From Planctomyces sp. SH-PL62 (GTDB lineage Bacteria; Planctomycetota; Planctomycetia; Isosphaerales; Isosphaeraceae), in contig NZ_CP011273.1 in assembly GCF_001610895.1 (NCBI RefSeq), positions 2,852,001-2,916,000 of the forward strand: a stretch of 64,000 bases of DNA, given 5' to 3'. The stretch's first letter is position 1, and the number at the start of each line of letters is the position of its first letter. Below, piece after piece: positions 3,064 through 3,867 of the stretch. The notes below the pieces were generated by a model. That model did no database searches, was not told the DNA's origin, and saw nothing but the letters and a program-made list of their open reading frames with translations. The translations under genes were made by a program, and so were the position numbers.

Positions 3064-3250
3064 GGTGATCTCGACTGGTAGGGCGTTCCTGGCGACCGCT
3101 CCCGCCGCGGCCCTCGCACGCGGGCGGCGCACTCGTTCGATGGGGGAAAGGAGGCGACGGGCCCCACGGTCGGCCCGGCCTTCCAGCTTACCGGAAACCT
3201 CGCCCCCCGTAACGACTTCACGAAAGGGGGCGGGGCGTGGCGGCGGGCGA

Positions 3251-3571
3251 CTAGTGCGGCGTCACGAGCTTCAAGCCCGTGATCCCGGTGATGATCAGCC
3301 CGATGCAGACCAGCCGTCGGACGTCCGCGGGCTCGCCCCAGACGACGATCCCGAACGCGACGGCGCCCACCGCCCCGATCCCCGTCCAGACCGTGTAGGC
3401 CGTGCCGAGGGGGAGCGACCGGAGGGACAGGCCCAGCAGGTAGACGCTGGCGAACATGAAGACGCCGAAGCCGATGGTGGGCCAGGGACGCGTGAATCCC
3501 TGGGCGGACTTCAGGCAGACGGCCCAACCGACCTCGAAAAGGCCGGCGACGAACAGGACGAGCCAGGCCAT
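3251..3571 (-). CDS. sugE: SMR-family guanidinium exporter (SugE/Gdx type)
   Basis: A 106-residue, four-helix small multidrug resistance protein. SugE/Gdx members work as dual-topology dimers exchanging guanidinium for protons across the inner membrane. Glu13 in the first helix (AGLFEVGWAVCLK) is the conserved proton/substrate residue. The loop after helix 2 and the helix 3 motif (RSLPLGTAYTVWTGIGAVGA) are of the Gdx rather than the polyaromatic EmrE type. The ATG at 3571 is preceded by GGGAGAGGAAG. A TTG 18 bases upstream is in frame but lies in front of this ribosome site. Its leader holds a guanidine-II riboswitch candidate, which strongly supports guanidinium as substrate. Confidence 0.93.
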   Translation of the reverse strand: MAWLVLFVAGLFEVGWAVCLKSAQGFTRPWPTIGFGVFMFASVYLLGLSLRSLPLGTAYTVWTGIGAVGAVAFGIVVWGEPADVRRLVCIGLIITGITGLKLVTPH

Positions 3572-3603
3572 AGCTTCCTCTCCCTTCAAAAAAGGAGGAG
3601 GCT

Positions 3604-3676
3604 ACGGGGTCGTCCCCGTCGATACGAGAAGGGCGGATCGCGGGACGTTCCCGCGACGCGTGGGGTCGTCCCCACG
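3604..3676 (-). promoter_or_regulatory. Guanidine-II (mini-ykkC) riboswitch candidate
   Basis: Reading the minus strand, two hairpins carry the mini-ykkC hallmark, a GC-rich stem capped by an ACGA tetraloop (loop consensus ACGR). The upstream one is CGTGGGG-ACGA-CCCCACG (3659-3676). The downstream one is ACGGGG-ACGA-CCCCGT (3604-3619). Between them a third hairpin, GCGGGA-ACG-TCCCGC (3640-3654), also exposes ACG. The array ends 32 bases before the sugE start codon. Just after the last hairpin a CCTCCTCC tract can pair with the GGAG/GAGG of the sugE ribosome site, so control is probably translational. In the known class the two ACGR loops each bind guanidinium and kiss. The gene downstream is the classic guanidine-II target. 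Confidence 0.85.
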
Positions 3677-3867
3677 CCGACCATCCTAATCGGAACCTCT
3701 CGCCGGTTCAAGACTCCTCGGCGGGGGGTCGATCCGCCGGCCGCCGACTGGCGTTGCCCGAAATCGGGAGATCGGTTCAGATGACGCCGGGTCGAAGGAT
3801 CGGCCGCCGCATCGTCGCGCCTCGTCCCCCGCGCCGGGAGGAGAGGCCCCACGGAGGAGGATTGCTC

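Follow-up and report, generated by a model that had tools for sequence, protein, structure and literature searches.

A probable guanidine-II riboswitch variant with a conserved linker stem before a guanidinium exporter gene in Isosphaeraceae

Guanidine-II riboswitches (the mini-ykkC class, Rfam RF01068) are recognized by two GC-rich hairpins with ACGR tetraloops, set before a gene of guanidine export or metabolism. The class binds guanidinium as its two loops kiss, and it adjoins the ribosome site with a platform that depends on the ligand. In the literature cited here, which is drawn on in excerpt, the linker between the two hairpins is variable, at 7–40 nt (PMC7544219), and the usual Escherichia coli model locates an anti-Shine-Dalgarno sequence within it (PMC9300104, PMC9094411). 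For Gloeobacter violaceus, a stem-loop has been proposed that overlaps P2 and the ribosome site and is mutually exclusive with the folded riboswitch (PMC5486947). Among vertebrate guanidine-II clusters, the elephant CA8 cluster contains extra hairpins with the consensus loop, three of its hairpins being guanidine-responsive (PMC12335538). According to the excerpted part of a review, the class has been described mainly from Proteobacteria (PMC12186494). The preliminary description of our locus had said the same, yet RF01068 matches 26 of 392 sampled planctomycete genomes, 21 of them over threshold. In the open literature, a scope that excludes subscription papers, including the original 2017 descriptions, we found no description of guanidine riboswitches in planctomycetes or Isosphaeraceae.

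It is useful to contrast these systems with the leader reported here, which lies in a 64-kb stretch (64,000 nt, hereafter the window) of the genome of Planctomyces sp. SH-PL62. Like RF01068 guanidine-II, this leader places two GC-rich ACGA hairpins before a Gdx/SugE exporter gene, and its 38-nt linker falls inside the 7- to 40-nt range (PMC7544219, in excerpt). Unlike it, the variant has a conserved linker hairpin, linkers of 34–41 nt, and a score below the Rfam cut-off, and the window's proposed expression platform is located entirely 3′ of P2 and extends as far as the start codon. The G. violaceus leader shares a P2/ribosome-site stem-loop that excludes the riboswitch, but its linker is 14 nt long and the excerpted text mentions no linker hairpin (PMC5486947). 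The elephant CA8 cluster likewise has more than two hairpins in a row, but the window's middle loop departs from the consensus given in that excerpt (PMC12335538). Guanidine-III (ykkC-III, RF01763) also precedes planctomycete sugE homologues, but its fold differs and the window leader has no RF01763 match. The apparent novelty in Isosphaeraceae is a long linker with a hairpin inside it; guanidine-II as such is not new to the phylum, given the RF01068 matches.

Two ACGA hairpins before an exporter gene

The preliminary description, made from the letters of the window, proposed a guanidine-II-like element before sugE, with two ACGA-capped stems and a third hairpin between them. All three hairpins (P1, middle, and P2) are indeed present on the minus strand (Table 1), and the two ACGA hairpins before sugE are conserved in eight distinct relatives. 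Across the nine aligned leaders, the ACGA loop of P1 with its two adjoining G-C pairs and the ACGA loop of P2 are found in every one. This recurrence of both ACGA hairpins across the nine distinct leaders gives the assignment to guanidine-II good support by homology. The leader RNA before this guanidine-exporter gene very probably senses guanidine through two hairpins.

Table 1. Features of the leader and of the exporter gene, in window positions
Feature	Position	Strand	Description
Possible promoter	3683..3711, just 5′ of P1	minus	TTGAAC-17 nt-TAGGAT; by eye; weak, 8 of 12 positions against the consensus
P1, first guanidine-II hairpin	3658..3677; loop 3669-3666	minus	GCGUGGGG-ACGA-CCCCACGC, 8 bp; read from the sequence
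Middle (linker) hairpin	3637..3657; core 3655-3639; ACG triloop 3648-3646	minus	CGCGGGA-ACG-UCCCGCG, 7-bp core
P2, second guanidine-II hairpin	3604..3619; loop 3613-3610	minus	ACGGGG-ACGA-CCCCGU, 6 bp; read from the sequence
Anti-start hairpin	3568..3607	minus	CCGUAGC of the P2 3′ arm with GCUAUGG; UCCUCCUU with the ribosome-site region; excludes P2; predicted folds
Ribosome-site region	3577..3584	minus	GGGAGAGG; recognized by eye
sugE/gdx-type SMR exporter gene	3251..3571; ATG at 3571	minus	profile and structure-sequence matches

The pairing of two such hairpins is not a common feature of this DNA. With stems of at least 4 bp and a gap of 5–60, P1 and P2 form the only ACGR hairpin pair on either strand of the window, and no pair with stems of at least 6 bp arose in 60 first-order Markov copies of it. 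The 131-nt leader folds with a z of −4.16 against shuffles, and the 3′ end of P2 stands 32 nt from the sugE ATG. A promoter scan at a 9-of-12 match found none; by eye, TAGAAT, GATAAT, or TATGAT directly precedes P1 in five of eight relatives.

The covariance-model search that the preliminary description had suggested gave a match below threshold. RF01068 matches the leader, with the middle hairpin taken as P1, but the 29.8 bits (E 2.4e-4) fall short of the cut-off of 32, and no Rfam family matches the window at its gathering score, which is a curators' threshold and no biochemical definition. Among the eight Rfam matches to E 10 in 3480-3800, RF01068 on P1 alone scores 19.3 bits, and the guanidine-I, -III, and -IV models do not occur. 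In one relative, L010, RF01068 pairs the outer hairpins correctly and treats the middle one as an insertion, at 27.5 bits. The threshold was reached by none of seven variant relatives, versus all four two-hairpin planctomycete sugE leaders (L018-L021).

The downstream gene agrees with the sugE-type target first proposed. Its product is an SMR protein (PF00893, 92.7 bits); among the NCBIfam models SugE scores highest, at 113.7 bits, which is below that model's cut-off of 126. The closest solved structures are 8vxu (99.7 bits) and 6wk5 (97.5 bits), whereas the best EmrE chain reaches 45.2. We take 8vxu and 6wk5 to be Gdx proteins, 6wk5 and its companions being the guanidinium exporter Gdx-Clo. 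Downstream of the window's sugE lies a deoxyhypusine-synthase-like gene (PF01916; 2044-3063, minus), which also follows sugE in L010 and L015 of the same genus (84 and 87% identity) and was not found in the ∼1.5-kb flanks of nine other loci.

Relatives and distribution

The planctomycete setting first proposed proved correct, and the window's family includes Singulisphaera acidiphila and Singulisphaera sp. GP187. A protein search of 45 genomes of this family found a relative at E 1e-15 or better in 22 of them, at 23 places. At 8 of the 11 places with at least 61% identity, the leader has the P1-middle-P2 arrangement (window, L010, L011, L012, L013, L015, L016, and L119, which has the same leader as L039). 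The other three lack it: G029 (L014), G060 (apparently L043), and G062 (L121). The eight genomes with the variant leader span four genera, with three in g1, two in g7, two in g10, and one in g21. The ninth distinct leader, L044, comes from a metagenome-assembled genome labelled Alphaproteobacteria; its SugE is 68% identical to the window's, and the contig may be a mis-binned planctomycete one or reflect a transfer. The L014 sugE leader has a single ACGG hairpin adjoining the ribosome site, P1 not being found, and may be read as a decayed or half guanidine-II.

In all, 37 of 112 scanned leaders contain two ACGR hairpins; four duplicates apart, these are the nine variant leaders and 24 others. 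The leader counts leave out sites L120, L122, L123, and L124, and leader statistics are not independent, the leaders being mutually related. The R1 search of a 392-genome draw from the phylum matched the window's genome alone, in a draw that held one other family member and with few candidates scored per genome. Among the 45 family genomes it gave matches in eight, including a chance one in G032, but not at the leader of G028. A pattern search of 397 genomes of the class matched 28, in eight of which sugE leaders were recognized; a backward control pattern matched too. Several candidates were set aside as chance: a tandem array of three RF01068 matches in G013 (L003), in a proline/glycine-repeat reading frame and antisense; L006 and L008, within or beside long reading frames; and the R1 match L163 in G032, antisense to a reading frame.

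Other guanidine riboswitch arrangements were seen in the phylum. In the planctomycete family f17, eight of ten RF01068-matching genomes have guanidine-II matches arranged back to back and divergently, with under 450 bp between them. One such pair is L171 and L189 (G334:C137:2835-2881 minus and 3076-3120 plus). In L171 the matches are flanked by a UAAP1-type gene (TIGR03425, 276.8 bits) and a TIGR03427-like ABC substrate-binding gene (152.4 bits, under cut-off), and this is probably a divergent locus for guanidine uptake and degradation. Guanidine-III precedes sugE homologues in other planctomycetes (L026 1836-1897, L028 1403-1467, and L033 1826-1888). One such case is in G002, of the same genus as the window; thus, close relatives use different guanidine riboswitch classes.

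A conserved stem in a long linker

Between P1 and P2, the preliminary description had noted a hairpin GGGA-ACG-TCCC. The hairpin is present, but the quoted 4-bp stem is too short: the core has 7 bp and is lengthened to 3657-3637 by one U-A and one G-U pair. Every one of the nine leaders has a middle stem in this position. In a model-fitted alignment of these leaders, 98.2% of its cells are paired. The model behind these counts was seeded by three of the nine leaders themselves (window, L010, and L015, as alignment A4), to which the other six were aligned; the MAFFT alignments A1, A2, A3, and A5 set the middle hairpin out of register. Changes on both sides affect three of the seven pairs without the ill-fitted L013 row and four of seven with it. 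One pair occurs as C-G, U-A, and G-C in the alignment without L013. The stability of the middle hairpin is unexceptional, with 36 to 440 of 1000 composition shuffles folding as well (mean z −1.06).

The middle loop behaves differently from the stem. In the relatives it reads GCAUU or CAU, CUG, AGUGG, GGAGU or GAG, AUGC, and GCCA, while L013 and L039 have longer loops. An ACG or ACGR loop is absent from this place in all eight relatives; in L013 the letters ACG span stem and loop. The alignment of relatives' leaders that had been proposed as a check shows both-side changes in the stems and no conservation of the ACG triloop. The suggested three-unit arrangement is not supported: the middle stem is conserved, but the ACG triloop is private to the window and lacks the fourth loop base. 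With no conserved third ACGR hairpin, we rejected a third ACG sensor unit, a plausible but wrong reading that is corrected here. What is conserved here is the stem, and the window's ACG loop is most simply a coincidence; the third hairpin looks like a conserved spacer, not a third sensor.

The linkers measure 34–41 nt in the nine variant leaders (38 nt in the window) and 9–21 nt in the 24 other sugE leaders. Among 27 further Planctomycetota RF01068 loci, 19 could be parsed (eight could not), with linkers of 9–17 nt and one of 27 nt, at a locus that scores under the Rfam threshold. The published 7- to 40-nt range, which covers the window's linker, is exceeded by one base in L016. Where the middle hairpin is simple, as in seven of the variant leaders, 15–23 linker bases are unpaired. 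Since this comes close to canonical linker length, we infer that the hairpin absorbs the surplus of a long linker.

The predicted switch, its rivals, and its bearing on guanidine control

The preliminary description held that CCTCCTCC can mask the ribosome site. This is borne out by predicted folds and can be extended: the P2 3′ arm is predicted also to pair with the start codon, in one hairpin. In the window, this anti-start hairpin reaches −19.9 kcal/mol in a 42-base stretch, a fold equalled by one of 1000 shuffles of the spacer. For eight of the nine leaders the number of equally good shuffles is 0 to 11 of 1000; in L016 it is 197 of 1000, so that the anti-start hairpin there is not significant. 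The start codon lies inside the hairpin in seven leaders, and L044's leaves it free. Across the seven alignable leaders, 42 of 42 cells of the outer six pairs remain paired, a result that 22 of 500 shuffles equalled. At one pair, L013 and L039 have C-G in place of A-U, a both-side change that may be one event. The mean z is −3.50 in the variant leaders versus −0.61 in the 24 two-hairpin leaders. Five of the latter (L078, L092, L094, L109, and L116) have a z of −2.38 or lower; thus, this type of platform is not confined to the variant.

We consider it likely that the leader is an Isosphaeraceae variant of the guanidine-II riboswitch and switches on the translation of its guanidinium exporter, with P1 and P2 as sensor and the middle hairpin as a conserved linker stem; ligand binding, kissing, the direction of switching, and the spacer role are the parts that we infer. 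P1 and P2, with their ACGA loops, would be the two halves of the guanidine sensor. Without guanidine, the P2 3′ arm (CCGU of CCCCGU), the spacer, and CCTCCTCC would form a single hairpin with the ribosome site and start codon. P2 would then be unable to form because the anti-start hairpin uses its 3′ arm, and translation would be off. When guanidine is present, kissing of the P1 and P2 loops would presumably lock P2 and deprive the anti-start hairpin of its 5′ strand, and translation would be on. The middle stem would take up the excess of the long linker, leaving about the canonical unpaired length.

An energy model in which −8 kcal/mol was added on GACGAC hairpins to stand for the ligand reproduced this only in part. 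Among the nine leaders, L010 is the sole clear case, its start codon opening from 0.01 to 0.87; in L013 the change is partial (0.13 to 0.57). In the window, P2 reaches 0.42 and the start codon 0.19, with ribosome-site openness unchanged, and in L044 P2 is formed even without ligand. That the model gives no clear start opening in most leaders favors a guanidine-II aptamer acting through another platform, such as a linker anti-Shine-Dalgarno, as in the E. coli model excerpted above (PMC9300104, PMC9094411), or transcript stability. By eye, CCCUUC in the window's linker could also pair with GAAGGG. We nonetheless find this reading rather unlikely, because that complement was noted by eye and solely in the window, whose computed folds do not use it, and because the anti-start hairpin is found more consistently.

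The remaining rivals concern the sensor itself. In a three-unit guanidine-II array, the middle ACG loop would also bind guanidine or kiss P1 or P2. The Rfam model does align the middle hairpin as P1 with P2, and for elephant RNA, clusters of more than two guanidine-II hairpins have been reported in which every hairpin responds to guanidine (PMC12335538, in excerpt). However, the middle loop is a triloop with an A-U closing pair and without the R of ACGR, no relative repeats it despite the L013 letters, and in L010 the Rfam model passes over the middle hairpin, all of which makes such an array highly improbable. We give still less credence to the proposal that nothing is sensed and that these are stable GC-rich hairpins of a GC-rich genome, kept by shared descent. 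The GC-rich chance matches to RF01068 or R1 at L003, L006, L008, and L163 and the unexceptional stability of the middle hairpin fit this proposal, but two ACGA loops precede the same exporter in several genera, the stems show both-side changes, and no such pair occurs at any other place in the window or in its 60 Markov copies.

Returning to the two-hairpin sensor with a linker stem, a further role for that stem can be offered as a speculation, and a doubtful one. The linker hairpin may be a working third element, one that braces the kissing P1-P2 pair or stacks against it, or that serves as a cotranscriptional timing device, altering affinity or cooperativity relative to two-hairpin guanidine-II; in the window, the ACG triloop could even take part in the contact between the loops, and the P2 loop GGACGACC may in addition be held off by exporter codons 4-6. 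If this last part were true, a sensor loop would read its own coding sequence. In predicted folds (window 3561-3619, minus), the P2 loop region is complementary to sugE codons 4-6 in several leaders. We rejected this pairing as a finding, since synonymous resampling gave a mean z of only 0.94 over the nine leaders; resampled codons did as well in 1 and 3 of 200 draws for L012 and L016 and in 24 to 87 of 200 for the other seven. The pairing is inseparable from codon use because GTC is the commonest Val codon there.

These results would extend guanidine-II to a three-hairpin architecture in Isosphaeraceae. Because the variant scores under the Rfam threshold, guanidine control may be under-counted in this family. 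The variant leaders also provide natural material for asking whether the linker is a mere tether, a question that the E. coli model, with its anti-Shine-Dalgarno in the linker, and the structural model, in which the linker spans two collinear stems, answer differently.
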